Of a DNA stretch of 64,000 nt, positions 1-64,000 are shown piece by piece; positions within the stretch are counted from its first letter, which is position 1, and each line of letters opens with the position of its first letter. The stretch lies in the NCBI GenBank assembly GCA_025765595.1, contig JAIVFH010000029.1:248001-312000 (forward strand), written 5' to 3'. The stretch comes from Obelidium mucronatum. Lineage: Eukaryota > Chytridiomycota > Chytridiomycetes > Chytridiales > Chytriomycetaceae. The notes under the pieces were generated by a model that did no database searches, was not told the DNA's origin, and saw only the letters and a program-made list of their open reading frames with translations. Made by a program: the position numbers and the translations under genes.

Positions 1-1869
1 AATATCGTACACTGTATATCATCGTACGGATCAGATGCTCTTGGGTTTTACCTGACAAGGATTCCTGTAACCAAATTTGACTCGTTCTATTTTGACCCAT
101 TCACTCCAAATAGCCGTGATTGGCTTCTAACTCGACCCTCAATACTCCAAGAGAAAGCTTTTAATTTTATTTGTCGAAATCCAGGAAGGTGGGAGTATGA
201 ATCAAAGGACGTTATTCAAGTCCTCAGCTACCTGCGTCCAAACACATCTGCTGCAGCGCAAGAGATATCAAACTCTTGTATTTCATTCAACCAGTTTTTG
301 TTGGACCCTTTGTCCACAACGAGCTTAGCCTGGTTTTCTCAACAGCAGCCCAACCAACAACAACGGCATTGTGTACTCGCTCTCTGCTCACAATCCTCCA
401 AATCTACAGACGAATTGGCCGATATGTCTTCTACAATACACACATCGATGAAGCTGGATCCAGAAACTATTGAATTGATGTTGATGTGTTTGCAAGTCCG
501 AGACGTTGAGACGAGTTCAATGCTACTAAGTTTCTTTGAAACACCCTTGCCGCACGATGCGTTAGTTTGGTACGCTAGTCGAAACGCATCGAGCAAATTG
601 AATCTGATTGGTTATTTGGCGGCTGGGTTGGAATATCCCCTCCTTCACCACATCTTCACACTTACGGAATTAAAAAGGATCTTCCGGGAGCTGTTTGCGT
701 ATCTGGAAGCCTCCATGATGGGTGTACATCAACTCGAGTTTCGGTTCAACACTTACATGACGTATTTCGAAAATTATAATCTGACGAGGGAGTTGGAAAT
801 AATGAATCGAGAGACGTCTTGGTTTCATCGCGTTTGGTTTGCTTCTTTGAATGCCACGGATCGGTTGCTTGTGATTGATTATGTATGCTCGGATCCGGTG
901 GCTGATTTACAAGTTGTTATGGATCTTTTTACGGACTATTTCTTGTCTTTTTCGGACTTGTCTGCGCTGGCTATTGAAAAGATGAACGGATGTCCAAAAA
1001 TACACGCGGTAATGGCTGATAAATGGATTGAGTTGTATGTGTATATCTTTTGTGCTGTGGCGAGTACGTTAATGATTGGTTGGACTGGAGTCATGGCGCT
1101 ACATGAATTGAAATTCAAGAATGATCAGCATCATCAACAACAACGCAAGCTCTCTCCATTCTATATCGCCATGTTTCTGAGCAGTTTCGCTTTATTAGGA
1201 ACTGATATTACATATGCAGTCTATTGGAACATTCTCCTCAAGAACTTTAATGTCCTGACACCCAAAACGATATCCGCACAGGCAGCATGCTATATACTCA
1301 CGTTCATATTCACAAGTTTATGGAGTCAAACATACCTCCAAATTTCCTATGTCCGATCCGAGTCACTAATTCAAACCGTTTTCCCTAAACACTTTACAAG
1401 AATCAAGACCCTCTTTCGATTGAGTCCGATTCTGATATTCAGTCCTGTTTTATTCAGCTCTCTTGAAGTGCTTCGATTCACTGGGTTCCTGGCGCCCACA
1501 TTGACGTGGGCGTCTCAAGCCATCAGTGAAGCAACATTGTTGGGGTTGGACGTGATTCTCTTGATGACGTTCTTGAAATTCGTGACGGGTTTGAATGAGG
1601 CGATGGAAACGGATACAACGCGGTTCAAGATGATTTCTCAGTTTGGGACTGTTGCGAGTGTTTTGTGTTTGTTTATTTGTATTGTTTCGTTGGGGAGACC
1701 GCTTTTGACGACTTTTTGGCCGATGGAGTCGTTCTTGTTGCATTTGTGTACGGTTGTGATGGTTTGTTTGATGCATTTGGTGGATTTGGTCATGTTGTGG
1801 ATGAAGTGGATGCTTTTGAGGAGGAAAGGGTCGAATGTTGTGGTTGTGGGGACTAGTGAGGCGAAATAA
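1..1869 (+). CDS. WFxxQ-repeat seven-TM receptor-like protein, 5' truncated by window edge
   Basis: The reading frame is open from base 1, so the N-terminus lies outside the window. The first residues already align with the middle of the ectodomain of the next two genes (a PFTPxSRxW block near residue 40). At least four repeat units ending in C or G are visible, with cores such as AWFSQQQ and VWFASLN. Seven hydrophobic helices follow: roughly residues 345-367, 385-407, 425-447, 460-482, 498-523, 540-562 and 572-597. The motif SYVRSES follows helix 3. Basic residues in the loops after helices 1 and 3 and in the tail suggest N-out/C-in topology. This copy has no intron where its neighbours carry a phase-1 intron. 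I do not recognise the family; a GPCR-like sensory receptor is inference. Confidence 0.8.
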   Translation, partial: NIVHCISSYGSDALGFYLTRIPVTKFDSFYFDPFTPNSRDWLLTRPSILQEKAFNFICRNPGRWEYESKDVIQVLSYLRPNTSAAAQEISNSCISFNQFLLDPLSTTSLAWFSQQQPNQQQRHCVLALCSQSSKSTDELADMSSTIHTSMKLDPETIELMLMCLQVRDVETSSMLLSFFETPLPHDALVWYASRNASSKLNLIGYLAAGLEYPLLHHIFTLTELKRIFRELFAYLEASMMGVHQLEFRFNTYMTYFENYNLTRELEIMNRETSWFHRVWFASLNATDRLLVIDYVCSDPVADLQVVMDLFTDYFLSFSDLSALAIEKMNGCPKIHAVMADKWIELYVYIFCAVASTLMIGWTGVMALHELKFKNDQHHQQQRKLSPFYIAMFLSSFALLGTDITYAVYWNILLKNFNVLTPKTISAQAACYILTFIFTSLWSQTYLQISYVRSESLIQTVFPKHFTRIKTLFRLSPILIFSPVLFSSLEVLRFTGFLAPTLTWASQAISEATLLGLDVILLMTFLKFVTGLNEAMETDTTRFKMISQFGTVASVLCLFICIVSLGRPLLTTFWPMESFLLHLCTVVMVCLMHLVDLVMLWMKWMLLRRKGSNVVVVGTSEAK

Positions 1870-1892
1870 TATGTTATTTACATCCTGATTCT

Positions 1893-1893
<1 letters not shown>

Positions 1894-1934
<41 letters not shown>
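1894..1934. repeat. poly-T run of about 41 bases
   Basis: An uninterrupted T homopolymer follows the stop codon of the first receptor gene by about 25 bases, within the intergenic region before the next receptor. It may be a relic of a retrotransposed poly-A tail (minus strand) or a simple slippage tract. Its exact length is unlikely to be reliable in any assembly. Confidence 0.8.
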
Positions 1935-1935
<1 letters not shown>

Positions 1936-2127
1936 GTTTCTTGGTTTGCGAAGAAAGACTTTGATTTGTGATGGGTCAAAACGGCATCTCGTAAAATTGA
2001 TACTATGATGTTTGATTGTAAATGATTTGTGATTGAACCACCCAGGTGTCAAAAATAAATCTCATGTTTGGTTTCCCTGAGTGTTGCCTCTTTTTTGATT
2101 GGGTCAAGTCCAAAGAATGAGTGTCGA

Positions 2128-4303
2128 ATGAACTCAACATACTTCATCGAACATTTCAACGAGCTCTTTAGCTCGTATTCTCCACTCACGAATACAAGCG
2201 TATGGTGGTTCAACTCGCTGGATCAGCAGCTTCAAACCAATATTGTTTCTTTGCTGTGCACAACAACAACTATAGACACAGCAGTAGAGGGGACGACAAT
2301 ACAAACAAACCTCGACGCGTTATTGATTCTGAATCAAACATTCCTGCTTGGAGATAGCGTTCAATCAGCCATACAGGAATGTGTAGCCCAGGACTACGGC
2401 GGTGGTCGCATCGAAGCCGTTCCGCCAAACCAGAGTTTAACCGAGGGCGCTTTTGCGTTCAATCCGTTTACACCTGGTTCAAAGAGATGGTATTCGGAGC
2501 AGGATGAAGAGATCCAATCGAGTGCTATCGAGTTTGTTTGTGCAAATTATCAACACGTTTGGAATTATACCCCTCAACAAAGTCTGCAAGTCGTTGGATA
2601 CTTATCTGCAAATACTTCGGAAGATGCGATACAGTTGATGCAGGTTGTGAATGAATGCGTGGCATCATTGAAATTCTTGCAAGATCCAGTGGAGAATAAG
2701 TTGTGGCTGAGAAGTCAAACGGATTTAATGCAGCAGAGCATGCTGATTCACTTGTGTGCTGATCCGAATCAATCGACTGAGTACATGAGCTGGTTGCTCG
2801 CGTTTTTGCGGCAGTTTTTGTCAAATAATCCGCGAGTCCAGGATATGGCTTGGGACTGTGTTTTGACACGGGATTCAGACCCGAAGAAATCATTTCAGAA
2901 CTATTCTAAAGCTCCAATGGATCGTGCTATGCTGACTTGGTTTAGCTCTAGGAGCTTGAAGGCGCAACTGTCTGCCATGGAGTATCTGTTTGAAGGTAAA
3001 ATGACGCTGATTTCATGTACACAGCATGCCTAAAAAAAACGAACAACATACAGGCTCATCCATAATAGATTTTAGTGTGCCTTTTCGAATTCAAGATTTG
3101 TATCAGATCTTCAAAACGTATTTGACATTCCTCGACTCTCTGGACATGTCCACAACCCCCCATCTCAAGAAGTTAGATACCCTTTTGCGGAGATATTATT
3201 CATATAACCTTAGTTCAGAGTTAACAACTCTGACAACTGAACGCGCTCTGTCTGTTAATATTATCTGGTTTTTATCCCAAAATGGAGTTCGCCAAGGTAC
3301 TGCAGTCGATGAAATGTGCTCCGCGTTCGATTCAAATCAAGCGGTGACAATATTTGGCTACTATTGGGTTCTTTTGGGGACCGCTTTGAATCCAGTCATT
3401 TACAAAAAGATGATATCATGCCCTCAAACAATGAAGGCATTATTCCAGCTCAGACTCGAAGTTTATTTTTTTATTGGATCCAGCATTACGTCCGCTTTGA
3501 TGTTGATTGGATTGGTGGTGATGGTGGTGCGAAAGGAGGCAGGGATTAAGGCACTGGCATCAGCGTTCACTGTATCCATGATGATCAGTCTTTTTATCTT
3601 GACTTGCCAAAATGCTGTCTTTGCATATTATTGGAGCATCTGGCTGGGTAATTTCAATCAAGTTGTTGCAGCAACGAAATCCACAGAAGCCACATGTTAT
3701 ATTTCAATTTTGGCGCTCACATCGCTTTGGGACTTGACATATCTATACGTGTCTTACATTAGGTCTCGAGAGTTTATCCGTGAAGTATGGCCAAAGAATT
3801 TCCAAGTGATTCAGTGGGTATTTGCCTTGTCTCCACTACTGATTTGCAGTCCAGTCGTTGTGGGGGTTTTTGAATCTCTGAACTTGGTAGGAGTATCAGC
3901 GATTGCGACATGGTCTTTCCAAGCGGCCAGTGACGCTTGTGTTTTGCTTTTGGATCTGTTGCTCCTGACCACATTTGCCAGATTTGTCGCGAGCCTCAGC
4001 CAATACGTGTCCGACGATTGCAGACAGTTTGAAATAATATCTTGGTACGGTGGATTCGCAAGTATTGGTTGTGCTCTGATATCCATCACGTCCTTGGCGA
4101 AATCGTTTCTCTCAAAGTTGAGACCTGATGACTTTCAAAGCATGCATTTACCTGTTCTGACAAGAACACTGCTTACTTTGGTTATTTCCGGGATTTTGTT
4201 GACTATGAAGTATCAGTTGTATAGGGAGGAGGATAGACCCAAAAGTCATGATGCCATGTCCAATTATGATTTATCGAAAAGGGAATCAACTAATCGGGTC
4301 TAA
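2128..4303 (+). CDS. WFxxQ-repeat seven-TM receptor-like protein (two exons)
   Basis: Exons 2128-2995 and 3054-4303 are joined over a 58-nt phase-1 intron, giving about 705 aa. The start was chosen because MNSTYF matches the MN-x-[ST]-YF start of the paralogues. Five ectodomain units carry W-[FYL]-x-x-Q/S cores (SVWWFNS, RWYSEQD, LWLRSQT, TWFSSRS, IWFLSQN), usually followed 8-14 residues later by a Gln and a Cys. The intron lies just after unit 4. Seven predicted helices follow, with SYIRSRE after helix 3 and VWP shortly after it. The tail is basic (RPKSHDAMSNY). No N-terminal signal peptide is seen although several N-x-S/T sites are present. It is tandem with and closely similar to the next gene. 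Function unknown; receptor role inferred from topology. Confidence 0.85.
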
Positions 4304-4417
4304 TTAAATAAAAGTAAAAAATGATATCCACAATTTCAAAACGCAAATGATGAAAACTTTCTGATTCTGATTGGACCAACGAACAATACCCAAATATTAC
4401 AATATCTCCTTTACAAC

Positions 4418-6578
4418 ATGAACGCGAGCTATTTCGTCAATAATTTCCACACGATATTCAGCTCATACACGCCTCTGACTAATATCAGCGTGTGGTGGTT
4501 TGATGCTCTCCAAATTCAACCACAATTGGATATTGTCTCTTCAATCTGTAAACCGAAAATCGAGCCAACGGCAGGGGAATTAGACACACTTTGGATTCTG
4601 AATCACACTTTTTTGCTTGATTTGAGCGTACAATCTTCAATCCGAAGCTGTGTTGAACGGCATGGGCTCTCAGCACTGGCCTATTATAATGACAAGGATC
4701 CAAATATCCCTGAGCAACTTTTCACCATAAATCCATATAGTCCTGGAAGTCGCCGATGGTTCTTACAGCAGAGTCAGTCGCTACAGTCGCGTGCTGTTGG
4801 TTTCATTTACGCGAATCACCGATTCATTTGGAAGTATTCACCTGAGCAAAGCATCCAAGTTCTTCAGTATTTATCTCTGCAAAACTCTGTTTCAGGAATT
4901 CGTGAAGAATTTGAAGAATCGAGTAACTCCTTGAGATTCCTTGCACACCCTCTTGAATATACTGCTTGGTTCCAAAACCAAAATGATTTCAAACAGCAAA
5001 CATTAATCCTTCAGATTTGTGCCATTGCCGAAAAATCCACAAATGAGTTGGATCAGCTATTCGCAGTTCTTCGAATTTATGCTTCAACCAACCTGAAAGT
5101 CCAGGAAACAATGAAGGATTGTTTGAAAACAAGAGACTTGAGCATCACCGATGCTGTTCGAGGCAATTTTATGCGTACCACAGAGAATCCAATGACGACA
5201 TGGTTTGCCTCGAGAAGCCTCGATGTTCAACTTTCCACTATTGACTACTTTTTTCAAGGTGTTTATTATTTTCTCCCCCACACTGATGTGTGAATGAATG
5301 CTTACACCACCTCTAGGGCAGACTATAGACATTTCTATAGTGTTTACAATTCAAAAGTTGTTGAATATTTTTACCACATATCTCACGTTTCTGGACTCCA
5401 TGTGGATGACCACCAACCCACAAGTAAAAAGAATTCGCGTTCATATCGATTCATACACTTCATACAACCTCACAGCCGATCTCATGAATTTTCAGATGCC
5501 AAAAGTTCCAAAAGCCAATGTCGTTTGGTTCCTATCGCAAAATGCAACCAGACAGTTGGAGATTGTTGATGAAATGTGTGCGTTATTAGAAGTGAAGCAG
5601 GCCTTTCGAATATTTGGATTCTATTGGAGGTTATTTGGGCCTCAATTAGATCCAGCGTTTTACCACAGAATGAAATCGTGCACAAAAATCCAAGAGGCAT
5701 TGCAACCGATGAGGCTGGAATTTTATTTGTTTGTAGCTTCAGGGATTTTATCTGTTTTCATGCTGGCTGGACTGGTTGCTCTTGTGGTGCATAAGGAATA
5801 TGGATTTAAGGCACTTAAATCACAATTCACATCTTCCCTGATCTACAGCCTGCTCATTCTTCTTTTTCAAAATGCCGTCTTTGCTTATTACTGGAGCGTG
5901 ATGATGTTCAATTTCAGTCAGGTCACCCCGTCCACAGTAACAATCGAAGCCATTTGCTATGTCACTACAACTTTATTTTCTTCTTTTTGGGATATGGCTT
6001 ACTTGTACTTGTCGTACATACGATCTCGTGAGCTCTTGTGCGAGGTGTGGCCAAAAAGCTTTGGATTCATTAAGGGGTGCTTTCTTTTGTCGCCAGCTTT
6101 AATTGCTAGTCCTGTTATTGTGGCTGTATTTGAAGCTTTCCATGTTCCAGGCGTCACCGCAACATTGACTTGGTCATTTCAAGCCGTTGGGGACACAACA
6201 CTCCTGATTCTCGATATCTTCTTGCTTTCAACATTTGTAAGATTCGTGACGCAGATAAATAAGCTTGTTGTCGCAGATTGCAATAAGTTTCAGATAATAT
6301 CTTGGTTTGGAGGAGCAGCAAGTGTCGGATGTGCTTTGATTTCTATTGTTTCACTCATGCGCCCCGTTTTGATGAATCTGAATCCAGGCGATTACCAAGT
6401 CGTGCATAGTACTGTAATGACCAGAACTATTTTAACGCTGGTTATTTCGGCAATCCTTCTTGTAATGAAGTATCAACTCTACATAGAAGAAGAGCGACCA
6501 AAAAGCAACAGCGGAATGTCCAACTACCGCCTTTCTAAAACCAATCAAAATTCTTCGATGAATAACCTTAAAGTATAA
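4418..6578 (+). CDS. WFxxQ-repeat seven-TM receptor-like protein (two exons)
   Basis: Exons 4418-5258 and 5317-6578 flank a 58-nt phase-1 intron with the same position and length as in the upstream paralogue; the protein is about 700 aa. It starts MNASYF. Five repeat cores are visible (SVWWFDA, RRWFLQQ, AWFQNQN, TWFASRS, VWFLSQN). The seven-helix half is very similar to the upstream copy: SYIRSRE followed by CEVWPKS after helix 3, and a tail with RPKSNSGMSNY. The shared tail motif [RP]PKS-x3-MSNY is conserved outside the membrane and may be a cytosolic docking or phosphorylation site. Together with the two preceding genes it forms a head-to-tail array with about 110-260 bp between members, consistent with recent tandem duplication. 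Confidence 0.85.
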
Positions 6579-8589: not shown

Positions 8590-10432
8590 CTACAAGTAGA
8601 ATGACTCCACTTCAATGTCCACTCTAAACCCAGTGTGTTCTTTTCGGAAAGTGTTCACTGCCGTAAGTGATCCCAAAGCCAACCCCTTTGGCCCACAAAC
8701 AAATACGCCCACGCTCAAAACCTTTTCAGAAACATCGAGTGGGGCGACATGATTCAGCAGTAATTGATTGAGATCCGGTCGAGTTCTACTTGAAACAAGC
8801 TCGATACAAGACTTCTCATCTTTCACGACCGGAGTAGCAATGGTATCACAGCTGTCTCCCGTGACCCATTCTTCCGTTTCCTGGCTGCCTTGCCCAGTTT
8901 CGAATAAATGAATAGTCAGTCGACTTCCGCCATTTGAAGAAAGTCCCTTCAGCAGAGACAACTCTCCCAAGTTTTCAGCGCGACTTGTCCAGAAAAGGAA
9001 AACATGGGCGTCTTTCTTTTCAGAGAGAAGAACGCGTTTAATGGCAGCGGTACTTGCTGCAATTCCAGTCCCTCCAACACAAAAGACCAACACGTCAGGA
9101 GAGTGAGAAGAGAGTGAAGAAAAAGGAGACCAATCTTTAACCATTTCAATCTCTTTTCCGAAAGGTCCTTGTAAGCATGCTTCCACTTGGTCAACCTTGC
9201 CTTCTGAATCCATCCGTTTCAAGTATTCAACCACCAAAGAACTCCATTCCTTTTCGCTTTTGTCGCTCTTCACAAACAAGAATGTCACGCTTGTATCTGA
9301 TGAATCGACTATAGACCATGGATGGAACTCAAGTTTGGAAACTGATGGGAAGCAGACGCGCATAAATTGGCCTGGAAGTGCTCGTGCGGCTTTTGTGGTA
9401 GCAATAGTAAGTGTGACATATCCTGAGGTTTCAAATGTCACGGAAGTAAGATGATCTTTTTTAGGGGCGATGCGAGAGTGAAGGCGGAGGAAGCCATCAA
9501 TGGTATAGAGTAACAGACCTAGAAAAAAGAAATGTTTTTTAGGTGGCATATGTATAACATAACTACATACCAGGAAGGGCAAAGTAGATGCAGCTGGAAG
9601 CATGAAGGTATGCAAAGAGCATAAAGGCAAACACCAAGACATGTGTGTAGAAGAAGGTGTTATACCATCGGCGTCTCACATAATCCAAACTTGTCATAGC
9701 TACAAAAGTGAGGGAAAAGATAGCTACGAATCCCATAACAATGTAGTACTCCTTCTTTCCCCAAGGCTTTCTGTTGTCAACTTCGAAATAGTAAACAAGA
9801 AGTTGTTTGCTGTTTCGTCCAATAACCAGCAGATACGCAAGACCAGAGCCAAAGTGGAACCACGAAGTCCAGAAAAGTCCTCTGCTGAACCAAATGTGAA
9901 ACTGAACCAAGGATGTGTAAGGAATACCCAAAAAGGTGGCCAAGAAAGAGTTTTTGGAGACAGGAAAAATGGACAGGCCCATAAGAATGGCGCATATGTC
10001 TCCCGATGCATTGTAGAGGTTGTCTAAGATGAGGCCTGCGAATGGCTTTCCGTCTTTCACCCATTTCTGAACTCTCCTATCATGAAAGTACTTGTAGTTC
10101 CAAACACTCGCAGTGATGACCATGATGAGCATCAAATACGAGAAACCAAGCTCTCCAACAGAGATTGTTGATTTGGCGAGAGGTTTCTTGCTTAGAATTC
10201 GGTTTAGTGCTGGTATTCTTGTGGCGAACAACGCGACGACTCCAGCAAAGGCAAGAAAGCCATAGAACAGCCATAGATTGGTACGTATTAAGAGAGGCGA
10301 AGATATACACCAGTCTGAAAAGCACGACCACTTTGGGTTGTCAATCAGATACCAAACAAAGCCGAGGGATGCTGGGAAAATGGCCAGAGAGAGTGCTCCA
10401 AAAAAGAATTCTTGTCGAGTGTGAATAGGCAT
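8590..10432 (-). CDS. Ferric reductase / NADPH oxidase-family transmembrane reductase
   Basis: Two exons, 9571-10432 and 8590-9518, give 596 aa. The start is the first ATG (MPIHTRQ). The N-terminal half has six to seven helices. Paired haem-ligand histidines lie at about H179/H193 and H264/H277, the usual FRE/NOX two-haem arrangement. HPWSIVD (the HPF[ST]-type FAD motif), GGTGIAA (NADPH pyrophosphate binding) and CGPKGL follow in order. The enzyme moves electrons from cytosolic NADPH via FAD and haem b across the membrane to Fe(III), Cu(II) or O2. Which acceptor is used cannot be read from sequence. There are no EF-hands, so a calcium-regulated NOX is unlikely. The SYLF gene lies 106 bp downstream on the same strand, and a decayed copy of this gene lies just upstream. 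Confidence 0.85.
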
Positions 10433-10706
10433 GGTTTTTCGGTTTGAGTATGCTTCTGTTTGACGTAGATTGGACGTGCAAAACAAGCGAGGGTTGGCTT
10501 TTATGTTTTGGCTTCAAAGTAAAATTTGAGGGATAACATGATCCAATCAGAATTCAGGACCAAACAAACAGGCACGGAATGAAACATGCTCATTGGCGGA
10601 GAGACATTTACGCTATCTGCATTGAATCAAAATGAAATGTGATTGGAGCCGTGAATGTGTAACCAGATTCAGACTTCAGTAATTTTCTTTAATGCTGTGT
10701 AATATT

Positions 10707-14165: not shown

Positions 14166-16023
14166 TCAAACGGTTAATCCACCAAAAGAGGTTGCGCTTT
14201 TGACTGAGCCACCGATAATGCTCTTGATGGCAGGGAGCATCCACGAAACCAATGAAGAAGACTCCTTTGCAGTACTGCTGGAGACAGAGAGAGACATGCG
14301 AATGGGAAAAGATCCAGCGTGGCAAAGAGTGTGGACCCAGACATCGGAAATCTCCACATCAACAAAAGCGCTTGGCTTTGCGTAAGCACTCATCAAGATT
14401 CCATCGACAACCACCTTGTCTCCGAACACAACTGGACTAAAGATACCCAAACGCGTCTCTTCAGAGACAGCGATGACTTGGAGAGGGATAGCAGAGTTAA
14501 CTGATGCGACAAACATTCCTGGTTTCACGTTTCCAGCCTGGTGAGCGACCAGCGAATCCACATCTTTGGTGGGAGATGCAAACAGCATGTGGTTTGGAGT
14601 CAAAGAAGCATTGGATCCATCGGCAAAGGTAAGAACTGTGAAGCTGCGGCTTGCATCTGGGAAGTGGTCGTACCATCCAACCACGCGTTCAAATTTGGCA
14701 TCCTTGGCAGAGACACGAATATAATCACCGAGTTCAACAGTACAAAGTTTGATATTTCCAGACGGTGTTTGAACCATGGCGTCTCCGGGAAAGCAACCGC
14801 CTTTGGGTGGGGGACGGATTCCCGTACCGGTATACACCGACGGTCGGATTGCCGGACCGGTATACACCGACGGTCCTTGAGAAGCCAATTCTTGGTATGC
14901 TCGTATCGGTAGACCAATAGGACCGGTCAATATCATTAATTCCTGCAAACTGGGTTCTCTGGCTTGAGGTTGTTGTCGGGGCACTGGACGTGATTCGTAA
15001 GAAGCCTGCCTACTGTTATACTGATTCTGAAGATGCTCCATTTCACGGCGCTGTCTCTCACTTTCCGCTTGAGCTAATTTGCGGATACGTTCCGATTCAG
15101 CCTTCTCTTTTTCAAGTGCCTTGGCCTGATCCTCTTTGACTTTTTCCATGCGATTGTAAAGTTCGTCTGATAAAACAGAAATCGTTCCAATCTAGTCATT
15201 GCGACAATAACGAAATACGAGATTAGCTTGTATTACTGATTCTCACTGGTGCACCTCACATTTTTGGCATCGACGTCATTGAAAGGCAATTGGTTGGCAA
15301 ATTCAAACAGCCCTTTACTTGGAGTCCACGATCCTGCTTTGTTTTGTATGCCTTCGAAGTAAATTCTCGGGATTTCGTGTCTTCCCTCCAGAGGTTCCAA
15401 GGCTGGAATAAACCGACATTAAAAAAAAATACGGTTGAAAGTGACAGAAAGGAAGCAAGCCCCCCCGCCTCACCTTCATAAACCTGATTCCTCATTTTTT
15501 CCTCGTTGGATTTTACTTTTAACGCCTTCATCACATCCCTTGGGATTTGGTTCACAACTACACCAAACTCGACTCTGCTTTTGATGGCCCGAAGAATGCA
15601 CTTTACAGTTTCCAAGTCCTGTTTGACAATCATACCGTTCATTTGTGTTACCATGAATATCAATTTGAATGGACCAAACGGCATCTGAAGGGCCTGCGTC
15701 ACTGCATCGATCGCCTAGGAAACACGATTTTAATTTTAAGGATGAACGCATTTGGGAAGTAATTACAACAACGCAACCTCATTCTGGAGTGCAGAATCAG
15801 CAAGCCCAGGAACATCGCAGTAGGCAGTCACACCCATTTCAGACTCAGCACGGAACTTTTGCACTTGAAGTTTGTCGGTGAGTCCTTGTCCAATGGAGAT
15901 TCCTGCTTTGAAAGGCGGGGCTTCTTCGAAGCCATTTTGGACCAACAACGCATTGAGGAAACTGCTCTTGCCGGCACGGGCATTGCCAAGAACTAGAATC
16001 CGGCGGCTATGGTCACCTCCCAT
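14166..16023 (-). CDS. AIG1-like GTPase fused to Hedgehog-type Hint (Hog) domain
   Basis: Exons 15778-16023, 15474-15714, 15247-15402 and 14166-15166 give 547 aa. The N-terminus is a P-loop GTPase: GNARAGKSS (G1), DVPGLAD (G3) and VVNQIP at the G4 position, resembling the AIG1/septin-like TRAFAC group. A charged coiled coil (about 220-275) and a Pro-rich linker with a duplicated PSVYTG unit follow. The C-terminal third (about 339-485) is a Hint domain. It begins GGCFPGDA with the nucleophilic Cys339, has the TPNH block-B motif, and has a strand block VVVDGILMSAYA parallel to the Hedgehog SCYAV end. Hint domains cleave their own backbone by an N-S acyl shift at the Gly-Cys bond. The same GTPase-Hint order is known for GIN1 of the mycorrhizal fungus Glomus mosseae (from memory). 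Self-cleavage here is predicted, not shown. Confidence 0.85.
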
Positions 16024-31065: not shown

Positions 31066-31163
31066 GCAAAATAAAAAAACCAGATTAACTACGACCGTTG
31101 TTGTTTTGGCGTCGTTTCAACAATGGATACAAAGGCTTTTTTTCAAAGGGCACAATCACCTCA

Positions 31164-33299
31164 ATGAATCAAGCCTATTTTGTGCAAAACGCGTATCAAG
31201 TCTTAACGCGATATTCGCCATTGACGAATACCGCCATTTGGTGGTTTGAAGGGCAATCCGTCCCATCGCAAGCACAGATTGTATCCGACATCTGTCAGCA
31301 GCCCTTCCCACCTTCTCAAAAATTCTTGACATTTCACGCCATGAATCACACATTCTTGCTAGACGCATCCGTTCAATTGAAAATTTCGGGCTGTCAATCA
31401 ATAACTCCAGTGTCAGGACTTCCAACCCAGCTTCAAGTATGTTTGGTCAACGCATATACACCCAAATGCCGGGAGTTTTTCCAAGCCTCAAATACAAGTA
31501 TTCAACTCCAAATCGTAGCTATGACATGTGAAACTAAGTCTGCGGCGGATCATCTTGCTCAATTTGAGTACTTTAACAAAACCAAACCCCTGACCAGCAG
31601 CATAACGCGAGAGATAAAAAAATGCTACAAAATTGAGCTTTCCCGATTTCTTCAATATCCACTTGCGCCTCAATCGATATCTTGGTTTGCAAATCAGGAT
31701 GAAACTCGGCAATTGTGGGGAATCAACCAACTTTGCTCAAACAGGAGCCTACCAGACACTGACCTCGCATTCGTATTTAATAAGCTCAATGAATTTGCTG
31801 GCGTTCGTCCGGCCCCTTGGTCATTTGCTGAATCGTGCTTGAGCCTTCGAACGTGGACGTTTTTCGATATTCTATCAAACTATTACTCCGATCCCACGAA
31901 TCCAGTGGCGCTTCAATGGCTAGCAATACAAACTGTAGGTGAAGCAACGGGTGCAATTCGTAAATTATGCTCAGGGAGCTTTGGTTTAGCAGACACGCAG
32001 ACAAAGAAATTAGTTCCAGTATATAACGCTACATATTTGGAACAGATCTTTGACGCGTACATCAGATTTCTTGCCGGAGTGAATCCTGAGCACTTGCAAT
32101 CAGTCTGGATTGAAGTCGTCGATTGCAATAATTTCTATGCATACCAAACACCAAAGTTCTTTATAGAGCGTTGGCCAGAACCAATGGCCTTTGTTTGGTT
32201 TACAGGACAGACCTCATCTACTCAGAAAACTGTTGTCGACGAGGCATGCACTCTCGATCAATTCAATATGACTTTCTATGAGTCAATTTACAACTCCATG
32301 AAAAGTGTGGATGAGTCTGTCAAGTCAGCCATATATCAATGTCGCGATGTTACTGAAGCTCTTGATCCCAATAGAGCTGGAGTGTTTTATTTAGCATTGG
32401 CTATTGCTTCTTCGTTAATGCTGGGGATAACTCTCTTGTACTTGTGGCAGTACGAATGGTCTAATATGATGGCACAATTCAATATTTCTCTTCTAGGCTG
32501 TCTGCTATGCTTAGTACTGTTTTGCATATTAAACACAATTATTTGGAGCTCGGTTGTCATTGACGCATTTACTGGGGAACATCGTCAACTAGTCATGATC
32601 CTTCAAATTGGGACTCAGGTTGCACAGTCTTTATGGAATGTATTTTGCATCATGGCGTCCTATGCGAGAAGTGAATCATTGATTGAAGATATTTGGCCGC
32701 GATGGTGCAAGTTGATTCGAATCGTATTCCACGTCTCCCCAGTGTTTTATTTGGCGCCTATTGTTCCGATAGCAATCCCAATGATGGATCCATGGCAGAA
32801 AAAGGTGCTGGAGTTTAACGAGATTGAAATCAAAGACTACATTGGGCGTGCAATGGATCAGCGGAGGAATCTCGCTCTGTCGATATATATACTACAAGCG
32901 ATCAGTGCCGTTTGGTTCATGGTTTTGGACGCATTTTTCTTACGATGCTTCTACGTTTATATTTTGAAACTGTATGGCGATGTCGTTATTCCTGTAACCC
33001 CAAAGCTCTTGATTATTACTCGGTTTGGTTGTCACATCACATCAATTTTAACAATCTTCATGTCTGTTGTAGCGATTGTAAAAGCTGCATTTGAAGCAGA
33101 CGGTCGAGATATCAAGAGCAAGCAGCTCTGCAGTATGACGTATTTGATCTTGTCATTTTGCGTTGCCTTGTCTTTCATGGCGATGAAGTGGTGCATACAT
33201 TTAAGTAACAAGAATGAAATAGGCTCGAAATCTTCAAAAATCAATTCCAACTTGACAAGTATGAAAAAGTCGAATGCGACTTTGAATATGCGAGAATAA
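31164..33299 (+). CDS. WFxxQ-repeat seven-TM receptor-like protein, intronless
   Basis: Single exon, 711 aa, starting MNQAYF like the paralogues. Five repeat units are easy to count: AIWWFEGQ ... IC, REFFQASN ... TC, SWFANQDE ... LC, QWLAIQT ... LC, VWFTGQTS ... AC, each with Gln residues near positions +3 and +9 from the aromatic. Seven helices occupy about residues 415-690, with ASYARSESLIEDIWP after helix 3. A longer loop lies between helices 4 and 5 (MMDPWQKKVLEFNEIEIKDY). It is more divergent than the 2-6.6 kb copies but close to the partial copy at 63.6-64 kb (shared PxTPK and helix 6 region). It lacks the phase-1 intron. It converges with the disrupted minus-strand copy. Confidence 0.85.
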   Translation: MNQAYFVQNAYQVLTRYSPLTNTAIWWFEGQSVPSQAQIVSDICQQPFPPSQKFLTFHAMNHTFLLDASVQLKISGCQSITPVSGLPTQLQVCLVNAYTPKCREFFQASNTSIQLQIVAMTCETKSAADHLAQFEYFNKTKPLTSSITREIKKCYKIELSRFLQYPLAPQSISWFANQDETRQLWGINQLCSNRSLPDTDLAFVFNKLNEFAGVRPAPWSFAESCLSLRTWTFFDILSNYYSDPTNPVALQWLAIQTVGEATGAIRKLCSGSFGLADTQTKKLVPVYNATYLEQIFDAYIRFLAGVNPEHLQSVWIEVVDCNNFYAYQTPKFFIERWPEPMAFVWFTGQTSSTQKTVVDEACTLDQFNMTFYESIYNSMKSVDESVKSAIYQCRDVTEALDPNRAGVFYLALAIASSLMLGITLLYLWQYEWSNMMAQFNISLLGCLLCLVLFCILNTIIWSSVVIDAFTGEHRQLVMILQIGTQVAQSLWNVFCIMASYARSESLIEDIWPRWCKLIRIVFHVSPVFYLAPIVPIAIPMMDPWQKKVLEFNEIEIKDYIGRAMDQRRNLALSIYILQAISAVWFMVLDAFFLRCFYVYILKLYGDVVIPVTPKLLIITRFGCHITSILTIFMSVVAIVKAAFEADGRDIKSKQLCSMTYLILSFCVALSFMAMKWCIHLSNKNEIGSKSSKINSNLTSMKKSNATLNMRE

Positions 33300-33467: not shown

Positions 33468-35682
33468 TCATTTTGCTGAATTAGAACTCTTCATGAGATC
33501 CCGCAAACTGCCGTTTCCAGCTGTCCCCCCAGAGCTTCCAGGATTTCCAGCCGACTTTTTCACCAAGAAAACGTGAATCTTCATTGCAATTTGACAGGCC
33601 GTTACAAAATGCATGGCAAAACTTCCTGATAACGACCATATGTTCAAAAGCGAACTGTTGTACGGATTCACATAAATGGTCACAACTTTCCCCATCATTG
33701 AAACCGAAATAACAAAACAAAAAAGACACGTTACTATCCCGTATCGCGCAATGATTCCAAAGTTGAGTTCCATTTGATTCAGGTTCCCTGTTTTGGCTTC
33801 CAAGAGAAATTTCGCAAACGCATAAAGGAAAAGGCAATCAAGAACTAGCAAGGAAGAAGCTGAAATCAGTTGACAAATATAAGTTCCCGCAAAGCTGCTC
33901 TTATCCAGGTAATATATCTCAACGATATTAGCAATGACAGGAGTCAATTGAACGACTGGTGTGGATACGAGAATTCCCTTTATCACCTGCAACCACAGTT
34001 GATCAAAGACCCGGGAAATTTGGAGCTCACTTCGTTTAAAGCATAAGAAAATATAAGAAAGACGCCAAAAGACGCCAAATATTTGAGAACCCAAGTAGTA
34101 ATTGATGACACTCTCTGACGGAAACATTTTCATCACAGACAACCCCCAATACACAGAATACAGAGCATCCTGCCAAATTAAACACGTGATACTGATCAGC
34201 AGCGAAGCATTAAACGGAGTTGCCCAGATGGATCCCTTGGTTTCTGTGCTTCTAGTCTTGCGAGATTCAAAGTTGCCAATAAACCAGACAACAAGCAAAA
34301 GAAACAAGATCGAAACAGCTCCCAAACACATGTAGATATAAACGTTTGTGATTTGCCGTTGGTTGATTGGTGCAAAGGCGGGGCAAGTGACAATCCGGAA
34401 GCGAGGAGAAAAGCCTAGATATTTGTTGATACAGCTCATGTTTTGGTATGTGCCGACAATATCTTTGGGTGCGTTTGCGCAAAGGGCGTCTGCTACTTGG
34501 AGTTTGATTGGGTCTTGTTGAGAGGCGAACCAAATCACTGTTTTCATTGAGCAAATAGACTCGGCAGCTGATTTTGGGGTAATTAAAGTGTACGAGCTTA
34601 GGCAATCGTCCGCGGTGTTTTTTGCTCGGATTGTTAATCTGCTCGTTTCATTGAGATATTGCAGGTAGATATTCAAATCAGCTTGAATTTGCGACAATTG
34701 ATATGAACCTGGGAGGGGAAATGAAATCAAAAGAGATGAAACTAATTCAAAAAACCGTCGTTGAGTTTTCCCCAATAATGAAGAGATTCACCCCAACTTA
34801 ACTGATACACAAAGTAGCCAACGTTCTTGCTTGAGAAGATAAACTCTGTATTGAAAACCACTGAAGCGCCTGAGCAGATCCCAAATCATACGCCATACGG
34901 ACAGCTGTATAGTTCATGTTCTGAGTAGCAATGCAAGAGCCGATGGTGTCTGCAAAATCGGGCACTACTTCGAGCAGCGCGTTCCAGGATCACCTTCAAC
35001 TCGGATTGAAGCTTCTGATTTGCGCATACTTCAAGCGCGACACTTTTGATTTGATTCTCATTTGCTCGAGCTTCTTGAAGCCAGGCAAGTGAACTTCCCG
35101 TCAGTGGCGCCTCACTCACAGATAGTTTTGATACGCATACTTGCATGCGTTCTACAACAGCATAACTCAACTTCACAGCACTGCCACCATTTCCCCCGCT
35201 ACTTTGCAAATAATTCATTGTTGTATTAACTTCTACACTTTGTAACCAAGTTGAGTTGCCGACTTGGCTACCACTGCTGTCACCACTAAATGAACAAACT
35301 TGATTCACGAGCATCAACTGTGTATCCACATCTTGCGATTGAAACCAAGGTTCTACTTCTCGGCGCAAAGGGACACCATGTAAATGTATAAAGAAAAATG
35401 CTCTGTCCAACATTCGTGATTGAATACCGTCCTTGTGAAAGTTCACGAACCCATTGATTGACGGATGCAAAGATGAGGTGGATCCAAATCAAAAATCGAC
35501 GCGAGTGCTTGAAATTGGCTGGTTTTGGTTGTATTTGACAGTCTGGGGTCGCTCCCGATGAGGTTGATGAGTTGAGACTTTGTTGTGGTGTTTTGGGAGA
35601 GGAACCAGGAAATGAAAGGCTGTGGAGGTGGAGGGGTGTCAAAGAACCGAGCAAGGCCTTGACTGAAAGTAGCAGAGTTCAT
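33468..35682 (-). pseudogene. WFxxQ-repeat receptor family member with several frame breaks
   Basis: The C-terminal exon (33468-34708) is open and encodes one repeat unit (VIWFASQQDP ... LC), seven helices and a polar tail; after helix 3 the motif is CFKRSEL rather than SYxRS. A 94-nt phase-1 intron (34709-34802) sits exactly where the paralogues have theirs. The ectodomain half (34803-35682, start MNSATFSQ) needs at least three frame changes, near 35455, 35355 and 34980, to follow the family pattern: SWFLSQN, then PFAPRSR, then PWFQSQD ... VC, AWLQEAR ... VC, then QWFSIQS. None of these is an obvious intron. It is either a recent pseudogene or a real gene with several assembly indels. Confidence 0.7.
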
Positions 35683-35874
35683 TGTCTTTTGTTTCCTTGT
35701 CCTGAAGAGGAGGCCATTTATTTGTCACCTGGGTCAAAGTACAATGGAATCAAGCCAGAGGATGGGAAACAATGATAAATAGCACCTTTCCTCATTTTAT
35801 ATATTCACTTCATTCATATTTTCTTTAAATAATCAATCTACACACAAATCGGCTGCAGCTTGATTGCATCTTGA

Positions 35875-39390: not shown

Positions 39391-39519
39391 AAATTCTTAG
39401 TAAGCAGTTAGGAGTCCACTCGCGTCAGATAAATCGAATTAAAACAAGGATTCGATGCTTTTTAAGTTTTTTTTTCTTGGTATAGTTGTCATTGTTTGGA
39501 AAAAAAGAAAAGGGAAACA

Positions 39520-41669
39520 ATGGACGCAACTGTATTCTTGACACACTTTAATACAGCCTTTTCAACGTATACGCCTTTCACGAACCAGAGTATTTGGTGG
39601 TTCGCAGCTCAATCGGATGCCATTCAAGTGTCAATCATCAACTCTCTTTGTGCCGCGAATGATACAATCGATGTCAAAATCTCAACTCTTGATATTGTCG
39701 AACAGACATTTGATTTGGCCAAAGCTCCAGAATCAGCTGTGCAAATGTGTTTGCTTGCATACAATATTAATGATCACATGAAGGATACAGTGAAATCGCA
39801 AATTCAACTTGGAGCCTTGAATCAGTTCTTGTTTTCTCCCTTTAGCCCAGGCAGCAGAAAATGGATTCGAAAACAAGATGAAGATACGCAAGTGGATGCA
39901 ATATATTATATTTGCGAGCAATATGGTTTTACGGCTGAGCAAATCATCCAAGTTACCGACTATCTGTTTGGGAGTGGTGGAATTCACGAGTTGAGTACCA
40001 AAACGCTAGGGGCTCTTACACTCTGCGCGAGTTCAGCATACTTTGTCCTTCATTCAGATTCAAATACAAGCATCCAATGGTTTGGTCGTCAAAATTTGGT
40101 GATACAGCAAAGGCTGCTTGTACGCTTATGTGCAGCAAAAGAAATACCCACTGGCAACCTGAAACACATTTTCGGAACTCTGCGACGGGATGCATCGAAT
40201 ACTACTATTCAACTCTATGATTTTATTTTCGATGGTTGTATAGCGACGCGAGAGTATAGCATGGCAGACATTGTGAAGCGATTTGCCGGAAACCTTGATG
40301 CAATGCCAGTGCATGTATGGGTGGCTTTCCAGAATATTTCTCAACAATTGAACTTTATAGATTATATGTATTCAGGTATTTCATCTATCGGTTTCAAGGG
40401 AAAGATAAGGCAACTGACCATTTTTTTAAAAAAAAGGAAAGTCGCTGCTTGACCACCAGTTTTTTTATTCCTACTCAGTCATTTCCAAATTATTCACATC
40501 GTACACCGACTATCTGAGTTCAGTCGGAATAGCAACAAAGTATTTGACATACAAATCTAACCAGTGGGAAGATTTTTACGCGTCAATGGAAGATTTCGAA
40601 AGCGATATTTCATTTCTCGGCAACACCGTTTGGTTTGGCTCACAAAACCTAACCACCCAAATACGGGCCATGAATCACCTCTGCGCGGATCAAAGTTTCG
40701 ATTCAGACTTACTTGTGAAAATGTTTCATAACTTGGTCTTATTGACAAATGCGGACTTTCCGCTCCTGGATGAAATGCACAAGTGTGAAAGATCAGAGAG
40801 CCTTCAGCTTGACACTCGAGTCAAACTATACGCTTTCGTTTCATATGGAATATGCTGTCTGTTAATGATTCCTCAGCTATAGCGTAATCGTGTTTCGCCA
40901 ACAAAGTCAATCCAAAACTCCAAAAAAACAATCCAAAACTCCAAAATTGGCCAAATTTGATATCATTATGATAATTAATCTGTTGAGCTTATTATGCTAT
41001 GACATTGTAATTGCAGTGTTTTGGGCGAATCGGGTGTACACCTTTTTCAAAAGTTTGCCTTCTCAGCGCGTCAGTCAAGGAATCTTGTACGTTCTCATAT
41101 TTGTGTTTACATCGTCATGGAATATTTCGTACCTCCATTTGTCATATATGCGTTCGGAAACAATTTTGAAAATGATTTGGCCGAATTCAGTTCGTTTGAT
41201 CAAGTTGTTATTCAAGTATTCCTTCTTGATTCTGGTTAGTCCAGTGATATTCAGTATATTGGAGTTTTTAAATAATGATATAATCTGGAATACATTGACG
41301 TGGGCGACTGTGGCCACAAATGATATTGTTCTGCTGATTTTGGATGGGCTTCTTGTATACACGTTTGCAAAGCATGTGTCAGAGATTAGGAGGGATGTGG
41401 ATGTCCCAAACAAGCATTTGGATATTATTTCCAGATGGGGTGGGGCGGCAGGCGCAGTTGTCGTTTTGATTTCCATTTCTTCTATTACGACAATGTATGG
41501 GCTGATGGCTGGGGAAGGGTCTTATATGATGACTTCGGTGGTAATAATGGCTGGTCTTATGCATGTTGTTTCGGCACTTTTGCTTGGAATGAAGTACCGG
41601 CTTTATAGAGAGTCTCTTCTCGAAACGGCCCGTACAGTTTCAAGTAATCAAACTGCTGTCAGAAAATGA
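39520..41669 (+). CDS. WFxxQ-repeat seven-TM receptor-like protein with one frame break
   Basis: Exon 1 is 39520-40375 and exon 2 starts at 40479 (phase-1 intron of 103 nt at the family position). It starts MDATVFL. Units: IWWFAAQS ... LC, RKWIRKQD ... IC, QWFGRQN ... LC, VWVAFQN, VWFGSQNLTTQ ... LC. Inside helix 1, near 40865-40885, the frame shifts by one base: VSYGICCLLMI continues as SYSVIVFRQQS in another frame. The remaining six helices are open, with LSYMRSET after helix 3. A direct duplication encodes QSKTPKK twice in the loop after helix 1. Because only one base is wrong, an assembly indel or a very young lesion is likely. Confidence 0.72.
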
Positions 41670-41735
41670 AAAAATATTAAAATTGAATAACGTTGGTTGG
41701 AACCCAAATACAATAAATTTTTACGAAATGAAACA

Positions 41736-43800
41736 ATGAATACGACGTACTTTGTCCACAACTTTGACGCGTTATTCTCCACATATTCTCCACTGACAAA
41801 TCAAAGCGTTTGGTGGTTCAATAGCCTCACTGAACCCTTGCAATCACAGATTGCTGTTTCTCTCTGTCACGAGGCTGTTCCTGTCAACTCGCTTTTGACC
41901 TTCAGCCAAACCTTTGTTTTGAGCGAGACAAATCAGCATATTATTGACTCCTGTACACCAAGCGAGTGCTCACACCACAGCAAAGTTCGAAACAGATCTG
42001 ATTGTTGCGAACCCATACACGCCAGGAGCGAGACGGTGGTTCCTGAAACAAAAAGCAGAGGATCAAGTTGGTCTACTATCATATATTTGCAAATCCTGGG
42101 GATATTCGCCATGGCAGACGGTGCAGGTGCTGGAATACTATCTCCAAGACAAACCCACTTTGCCAAAGGATGCTCAAGTGGCGGCAGATACGTGCATTTC
42201 ATCGGCTCGATTTCTAATGTTTCCATATGTGGATTTTCACTGGGATTGGCTCGCGATTCAGACTGAAAATACAAAGAGACGACTATTGGTTCTTTTGTGC
42301 GCGGACATGACCGTTGGTACCTTGGAGTTGACGAAAATCTTCATACGACAGCTGCAACGGAATACAACAATACACGAATCAACTGCGCGCTGTATTCTCA
42401 TGCGAGATATGACAATTCATGATGTTTATAGACAGTATCAGCTCAAAAATACTCTATCGGATGACGCCAAATTCTGGTTTGCTATACGGAACTCAACAGA
42501 AAAGGAGCTGACGATTGACTATTTATTTGGAGGTGTGTACATTTATTCGTTTCGTTCCCATGAGGTTTAATGAATCCCCAAATATTAATAATAAGGGTAC
42601 ATCTTCTACGATCAAGGACCACCCATTATCTATACATTACCACAATTAGTTGCCATAATGAACGGTTACATCAAGTACCTATATGACCTTGAATTTCCAG
42701 TTCAGTCACTGGCGGATCGTGCCAATGCATGGTTTTTCGAATACATGAAGTTCAAGAGCTTTCCGGGAGAGGGGCATTGGGGATTCAACCTTGTATGGTT
42801 CGGGTCGCAGAATTCGAGCGTTCAGCTTGAAGCAGTGAGAGAATTATGCACGAATCCTGTGTACACCCCTGCAACTGTTTATTCTGTCTTTAAAACATTC
42901 TTTCGATTAATTCCTCTGGAACCAGAGATTCACAATGAAATGAGAAGATGTCCGAAAGATAAACAATCCATGAGTGACCATGTCGCGCTTGTTTCGATGT
43001 TCTTGGGTTGTGCAGGGTTCTGTGGATTAATGATTGTTCTGTTTAGCCTCATTTTATACCTGGAGTTCAGAAGCTTCGAGAAGCCCAACGAGGCGGGATT
43101 CTCGCATTTTAATTTGGTTATGCTCGCAAGTCTTTTGTGTCTCCTTGGCGAGGATATTGCAAACGCGTGGTTCATAAACTCGGCGATTTATAACTTTGAA
43201 ACAATGATATCATCAACGATAACGGGAGTTAGTGTCGTCTACTCTCTCACATTTGTGTTTAATTGTGGATGGAGCTTTTCATTCTTGCATCTGTCCTATG
43301 TACGGTCTGAGTCTCTTGTTCATTTAATCTGGCCGACCACGTATCAATACATCAAGAGGGCGTTTTTAATTTCTCCCATTGTATTCTTGGCTCCGATTAT
43401 AATCAGTGCTCTCGAAATTGCGGGTGTTGCCACGGCAACATTAACGTGGACTTCTTATGCAGTTTCAGAAGTTTACTTATTCGTTTTGGATTTGGTGTTG
43501 CTTTTCACGTTCATCAAGTTTGTTCGAGGAGTCTATGTTGATTCAGATATCTCAAATCAACAGTTCAATGCAATTTCGCGGTTTAGTTCTGTGAGCTCGT
43601 TTCTCTGTTTGTTGATTACGCTGAGTGCTTTGGCAAGACCGATTATAACAGAATATACTACTGGAAGCGATACAAGCAATTTATATATGCGTGGCGGTTG
43701 GGACGGTTCTTATGCATATTTCTACATTTGTTGTACTGTGTTTGAAATGGAAGTTGTTGCGAGACAGGATTTCAAAAACAGGAACGCTCATTTAAAGTAA
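41736..43800 (+). CDS. WFxxQ-repeat seven-TM receptor-like protein with one frame break
   Basis: It starts MNTTYFVHNF. Exon 1 ends at 42532 and exon 2 starts at 42617 (84-nt phase-1 intron at the family position; GPPIIYTLPQLV opens exon 2). Between IIDSCTPSE and KFETDLIVANPYTPGARRWF (about 41965-41985) the frame changes by one base with no room for an intron. The rest reads through: units RRWFLKQK ... IC, DWLAIQT ... LC, FWFAIRN, VWFGSQN ... LC, then seven helices with LSYVRSESLVHLIWP after helix 3. The C-terminal tail is short and basic. It is the head-to-tail neighbour of the previous copy, and both carry a single-base break, which may point to sequence quality in this segment. Confidence 0.72.
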
Positions 43801-63564: not shown

Positions 63565-64000
63565 TTATAAAGGAACTGTTTTTACGGACTCTGTAACGTT
63601 CACAGTATTGCTTGAATTACCAGTCTTTCCTGCCGTGGTGTTTTTTAATCCTCTTGAACTCTCCATCAAATCGCTTCTGTGCAGGACAACTTTCATAACA
63701 ATCAGACCGAAAGTAACTAAATGCAGCAAAACCAAGCTAAGCATTCCAGCTACTGATTGTGCAGTAATATTCGGTCTGTCTTCTTCGCTGACAGAATTGG
63801 CCTCGGCCGTCAGTTTCACTATTGCGGTTGTAGAAAAAGCAATGCAAAGAACAGAAGTTAGGGTACCGAATTGAAGAATAATTCGGAACTTTGGAGTAAG
63901 TGGAATGTTAATATCCTGATAAATCTTGCTCAAGAACCGATAGAAAGTGATCAATGAGAGAATATCAAGAACCATCAAATGAACCGCCGACCACGTTTGA
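63565..64000 (-). CDS. WFxxQ-type seven-TM receptor-like protein, 5' part outside the window
   Basis: The frame is open to the window edge. It encodes the last three helices: TWSAVHLMVLDILSLITFYRF (helix 5), ILQFGTLTSVLCIAFSTTAIV (helix 6), GMLSLVLLHLVTFGLIVMKVVL (helix 7), then a Ser/Thr/Asn-rich tail. NIPLTPKFRIILQFG closely parallels VIPVTPKLLIITRFG of the intronless copy at 31.2-33.3 kb, making these two a subgroup. The ectodomain is not visible. Confidence 0.75.
   Translation of the reverse strand, partial: QTWSAVHLMVLDILSLITFYRFLSKIYQDINIPLTPKFRIILQFGTLTSVLCIAFSTTAIVKLTAEANSVSEEDRPNITAQSVAGMLSLVLLHLVTFGLIVMKVVLHRSDLMESSRGLKNTTAGKTGNSSNTVNVTESVKTVPL

Follow-up and report, generated by a model that had tools for sequence, protein, structure and literature searches.

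Three genes lie in tandem in the first 6578 bases (1-6578) of a 64,000-nucleotide stretch of the genome of the chytrid Obelidium mucronatum (the window; C29:248001-312000 of an assembly of 48.3 Mb in 694 contigs), and the question is what kind of protein they encode. Each has an ectodomain of about 400 residues, N-terminal to a predicted seven-helix membrane part. On balance, we favour the view that they are cell-surface receptors with a G-protein-coupled receptor (GPCR)-like core, belonging to a family known to date from Obelidium alone, one branch of which carries an outer five-unit helical repeat; sensing through G proteins is proposed for them. The repeat, the predicted topology, the fold resemblance, the selection and the expansion were computed. 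The three genes and the landmarks of copy 1 are as follows.

1..1869, + strand: copy 1, a single open frame of 695 amino acids counted from the first conserved Met; hidden Markov model (HMM) match
About 1015-1824, + strand: the seven helices of copy 1 as predicted in AlphaFold model m82c9bcfe7aba
1345-1362, + strand: SYVRSE motif of copy 1
2128..4303, + strand: copy 2, exons 2128-2995 and 3054-4303, 705 amino acids; HMM match
4418..6578, + strand: copy 3, exons 4418-5258 and 5317-6578, 700 amino acids; HMM match

The frame of copy 1 runs on upstream; 219 bases separate its first conserved Met from the window start. The introns of copies 2 (2996-3053) and 3 (5259-5316) are bounded by GT..AG, leave an unbroken frame after splicing and occupy the identical protein position. 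These two copies are sisters in the family tree (support 100/100).

Ectodomain repeat and seven-helix part

About five recurring ectodomain units had been described in the initial annotation, and the units do recur: all ten unit-unit profile comparisons gave probabilities of 66-97%, against at most 4% in every control (20 reversed and 15 membrane-part comparisons). The literal pattern by which the repeat had been marked (W-[FYL]-x-x-[QN]...) did not hold, having a single match across the seven full proteins, so profiles were used instead; in loosened form it gave 33 matches in these proteins versus 3.5 in shuffles. The AlphaFold model of the copy 4 ectodomain (m99f35dbdf594) has 26 helices with no strand listed. 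For this structure prediction and that of copy 1 the alignments were shallow, the two having 16 and 12 rows in one order or the other. Sequons and paired cysteines are located in the N-terminal half of the proteins, and each repeat unit is probably stapled by one disulfide. The unusual feature is this type of ectodomain, a cysteine-paired helical solenoid, in front of a seven-helix core. We know of no other seven-helix receptor with such an ectodomain, and none turned up in the literature search, as judged by its listings.

For the membrane part, the copy 1 model bears out the seven helices claimed for the family, with helices predicted at residues 339-376, 386-414, 421-460, 465-490, 497-534, 540-572 and 577-608. 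The loops are positive inside, as had been noted: lysine plus arginine make up 143 of 906 residues in loops 1, 3 and 5 versus 61 of 862 in loops 2, 4 and 6, and 16 of 18 sequences agree in direction. Loop charge and sequons together suggest an N-terminus outside and a C-terminus inside. The S-Y-x-R-S motif reported after helix 3 is also present, and its arginine is invariant in all aligned members of three sets (7/7, 18/18 and 24/24), which overlap and include some near-identical alleles. In fold comparison the seven-helix part is GPCR-like; by prediction it has seven helices, the N-out topology and the helix arrangement of the GPCR superfamily.

Several results weigh against a receptor of this kind. 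Simple hydropathy alone counts 6 or 7 segments; helix 3 is the one it usually fails to detect, and in copies 2 and 3 it marks a spurious segment within the ectodomain. The evidence for helix 3 is thus the AlphaFold model. The loop-charge rule is broken by copy 4 and by a member without the repeat (a bare member, L028:5601-6647), and copies 1, 3 and 4, each taken alone, show no significant excess of sequons. No NPxxY-like motif was seen at the end of helix 7 in an alignment judged by eye. Pfam searches with 10 window proteins (E<=10) and 24 members (E<=1) listed no GPCR-type family among their matches, the class A profile PF00001 included; they gave weak matches to unrelated families, each in at most 1 of the 24 members, and since HMMER filters drop weak matches, these negatives are compatible with distant kinship. 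PDB sequence profile searches gave no relative, with one chance-level match each, and no Foldseek match reaches E 0.001. A profile comparison of the family with 12 class C members of its own genome yielded 0.3-0.4%, versus 0.3-0.7% for the reversed control. Finally, no signal peptide is visible in the full copies, which begin directly at repeat 1, and a hydrophobic start exon, sought upstream of eight genes, does not recur in any. Such a lack is odd for an outside domain of about 400 residues. There are three ways to account for it: helix 1 translocates the tail of 400 residues, the gene models lack a short initial exon, or the predicted topology is incorrect. Loop charge, sequons and paired cysteines speak for one of the first two.

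Further copies, family tree and selection

A profile of the seven-helix part matches eight copies in the window, in agreement with the three tandem copies and five others first counted there. With the base-reversed window as a control, neither the ectodomain profile nor the A3 profile had a match at E<=1. The matches to copies 4-8 lie at 31089-33296, 33471-34787(-), 39466-41666, 41691-43797 and 63568-63999(-), and the copies themselves are as follows.

31164..33299, + strand: copy 4, single exon, 711 amino acids; HMM match; ectodomain model m99f35dbdf594
33468..35724, - strand: copy 5, membrane part 33471-34787 in one frame; HMM match
39520..41669, + strand: copy 6, open pieces 39466-40449, 40430-40882 and 40869-41669; HMM match
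41736..43800, + strand: copy 7, frame change separating unit 1 from unit 2; different frame for helix 7 (43649-43792)
63565..64000, - strand: copy 8, C-terminal helices, remainder beyond the window end (locus L010); HMM match

The ectodomain units of copy 5 stand in further frames (34801-34989, 34889-35488 and 35446-35724), by introns or decay, and the three-piece layout of copy 6 would be compatible with two introns. Copy 7 is probably decayed. An additional relic once proposed for the window could not be recovered as a separate element, though decay is the likely state of copies 5 and 7, whose broken frames may otherwise reflect splicing. Elsewhere in the window are a Hint (hedgehog/intein-type) module (14169-15191 (-); PF01079, E 1.4e-20), ferric reductase-like pieces in two overlapping frames (8593-10513 (-); PF01794, PF08022, PF08030) and a Plavaka transposase (55808-57994 (-); PF18759).

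Genome searches with two other members, P0006 and the bare L034, gave 59 and 87 matches, which merge into 103 stretches spread over 49 contigs. The number of genes will differ from this, as second haplotypes and separate exons of one gene are included and only the best candidates were scored. For a tree without outgroup, 29 loci and the window supplied 43 membrane domains that cover 200 or more profile positions; we removed 14 of them as more than 90% identical to another, leaving 29 rows. All repeat-bearing rows, including seven window copies (copies 1-3 standing as their C325 alleles), fall into one clade of 13 rows (99/98), inside which six from C29 form a local clade (98/98). Of the 29 rows, 16 lack repeats, namely L023 and 15 from the second large group. 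By source, the ectodomain profile matches 14 of 30 (29 loci and the window), among which L010, L014/L015, L018 and L025 have no tree row of their own, since the membrane part of each is divided, truncated or located at the edge of a contig. No match was obtained in the other 16 (L019, L022-L024 and L026-L037). Of these, L022 fell short of the length needed for the tree, and L019, which begins at the edge of a contig, is paired with the almost identical L020, which carries repeats. Bare members have 310-349 amino acids and repeat-bearing ones about 700. Most simply read, the tree has the ectodomain gained once, by a bare seven-helix family of greater age; as there is no outgroup, it may instead have been lost on the other side. 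Two members differ in layout. L033:2709-4652 (-), on C49, is one open frame of 648 amino acids with two family seven-helix domains head to tail, and L029:1664-3010 (+), on C61, has a cysteine-rich N-terminal part without a repeat-profile match.

Contig C325 is collinear with the window and 97% identical over 8.2 kb at copies 1-3, and we take it as the second haplotype. Between the two, the ratio of nonsynonymous to synonymous polymorphism (pN/pS) is 0.06-0.36 in the ectodomain pieces of copies 1-3 (copy 1, 0.15; copy 2, 0.06-0.10; pooled, 0.16). In the membrane parts it is 0.025 for copy 1 and 0.165 for copy 3 (pooled, 0.09), that of copy 2 being excluded for two single-base gaps. These low values between haplotypes indicate that the genes of copies 1-3 are maintained. 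We considered whether selection is more relaxed on the ectodomain than on the membrane part, and set this aside; the direction fits but the difference is not significant (p 0.24). The second haplotype of copy 4 (L018, at the end of C325) differs from window 31164-32661 by eight single-base gaps. A broken allele of copy 4 was not used as evidence, because the gaps lie near the contig end and could be an assembly error.

These data bear on the role of the membrane part. If the proteins served adhesion or recognition at the cell surface (cell-cell, substrate or mating), binding would fall to the solenoid, and the seven helices would chiefly form an anchor or scaffold that sends no G-protein signal. 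The large repeat ectodomain and the tandem spread of the family would suit this, and G-protein coupling is so far a proposal only. However, by the pooled ratios constraint on the membrane part is no weaker than on the ectodomain (a difference short of significance, as above), and the membrane part occurs without repeats in the 16 bare rows, with the invariant inner arginine and an MK motif, which suits signalling better. We therefore regard this explanation as unlikely, although it is the strongest of the rivals to a signalling receptor.

Searches for relatives and proposed function

Searches of a protein database returned Obelidium proteins only (0, 5 and 1 matches); its coverage of other chytrids was unchecked, so no absence elsewhere is claimed. 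Viral contigs held no relative of the family, and the literature searches listed no description of it. The initial annotation held that no described family has this architecture. That stands for sequence, as neither Pfam, PDB sequences nor the protein search gave a family name or laid claim to the seven-helix part, but not for structure, where the fold is GPCR-like and hence not a membrane domain of a kind unknown before. The weak Foldseek E-values, the fact that fold alone does not give function and the missing signal peptide would also allow transporters or enzymes of the internal membranes whose seven-helix bundle happens to be GPCR-like, an alternative to which we give little credence. Less probable still are ligand-gated channels of inverted topology like insect OR/GR and Spizellomyces GRL, which seven helices, a chemosensory-like expansion, the GRLs of chytrids (available text of PMC7746228) and the missing signal peptide, as expected of an inner N-terminus, would fit, but against which stand loop charges pointing to the opposite topology, sequons and paired cysteines in the N-terminal half, the roughly 700-residue length of repeat-bearing members and fold matches listed (VIA-align, Foldseek) that are GPCRs, lists which hold no insect OR or class C rows and are not evidence of exclusion.

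For a receptor with a GPCR-like core, we infer a ligand, a coupling and a cell stage as follows. The solenoid would bind a ligand outside the cell, such as a peptide, a glycan fragment or a surface protein, and binding would shift the helices. Coupling to one G-alpha, for example in zoospore or rhizoid sensing, may then run through the positive inner loops and the motif with the conserved arginine, located where helix 3 ends on the inner side. The genome would offer many partners: 147 stretches match PF00503, and 51 G-alpha rows with a common core, non-overlapping and on 20 contigs, were chosen by eye, haplotypes included and two weak rows (E 3e-5) excluded. Most fungi have few G-alpha genes, fewer than here.

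Rhizoclosmatium globosum is a chytrid akin to Obelidium. Its zoospores swim to N-acetylglucosamine (GlcNAc) by a mechanism called poorly understood in the available text of PMC12115818 (2025). Because of the diverged tandem copies, the many G-alpha genes and this GlcNAc chemotaxis, a candidate chemoreceptor role is a natural hypothesis, with which the data are consistent, and not a result. Only tentatively do we extend it to a new G protein-coupled chemoreceptor class, restricted to chytrids or to the Obelidium lineage, in which a disulfide-stapled alpha-solenoid was gained once and tandem expansion went along with an exceptional G-alpha set, giving zoospores a repertoire for chitin, other food or mates. 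A host-sensing role is unlikely, because Obelidium is a chitin saprotroph. Chemical sensing by chytrid zoospores is an open question, for which the family supplies concrete candidate receptors with gene models and a predicted topology.

Comparison with known systems

Among known systems, the fold of the seven-helix part is most readily compared with class A and class T (TAS2R) GPCRs, which are similar in fold but have no detectable sequence relation to it. DRY and NPxxY are class A motifs; at their places the family alignment has other residues, so that its arginine motif differs from DRY, and the alpha-helical repeat ectodomain is a further difference. On these models we file the family as GPCR-like but assign it to none of the named GPCR classes.

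Fungal GPCR classes include STE2, STE3, Git3, cAR-like, Pth11/CFEM, RTA1 and others. These are likewise seven-helix fungal receptors with lineage expansions, but none of their Pfam models is among the matches listed for the family. The known classes number 14 plus Rhodopsin, Glutamate and Frizzled in the available parts of PMC12842992, in whose main text, to that extent, the word Obelidium is absent. For GRL proteins, which are reported in two Spizellomyces species, the available text of PMC7746228 gives an intracellular N-terminus and about 350-500 amino acids; the present family differs in being N-out by loop charge and in the length of its repeat-bearing members, and its bare members come near that length range.

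Class C (glutamate-type) GPCRs resemble the family in combining a large ectodomain with seven helices. Their ectodomain is a Venus flytrap, whereas the model of the present one is all helix. Class C receptors are enriched in Chytridiomycota, according to the available parts of PMC12842992. A class C origin was considered because such genes are abundant in this genome (150 stretches listed for 7tm_3, PF00003, among which the family has no place) and flank a family member on both sides on C46 and on C368; it was rejected on the profile comparison given above. The ectodomain model has its general helical-repeat architecture in common with ARM/HEAT-type alpha-solenoids such as importin alpha, COPI, Vps35 and others.
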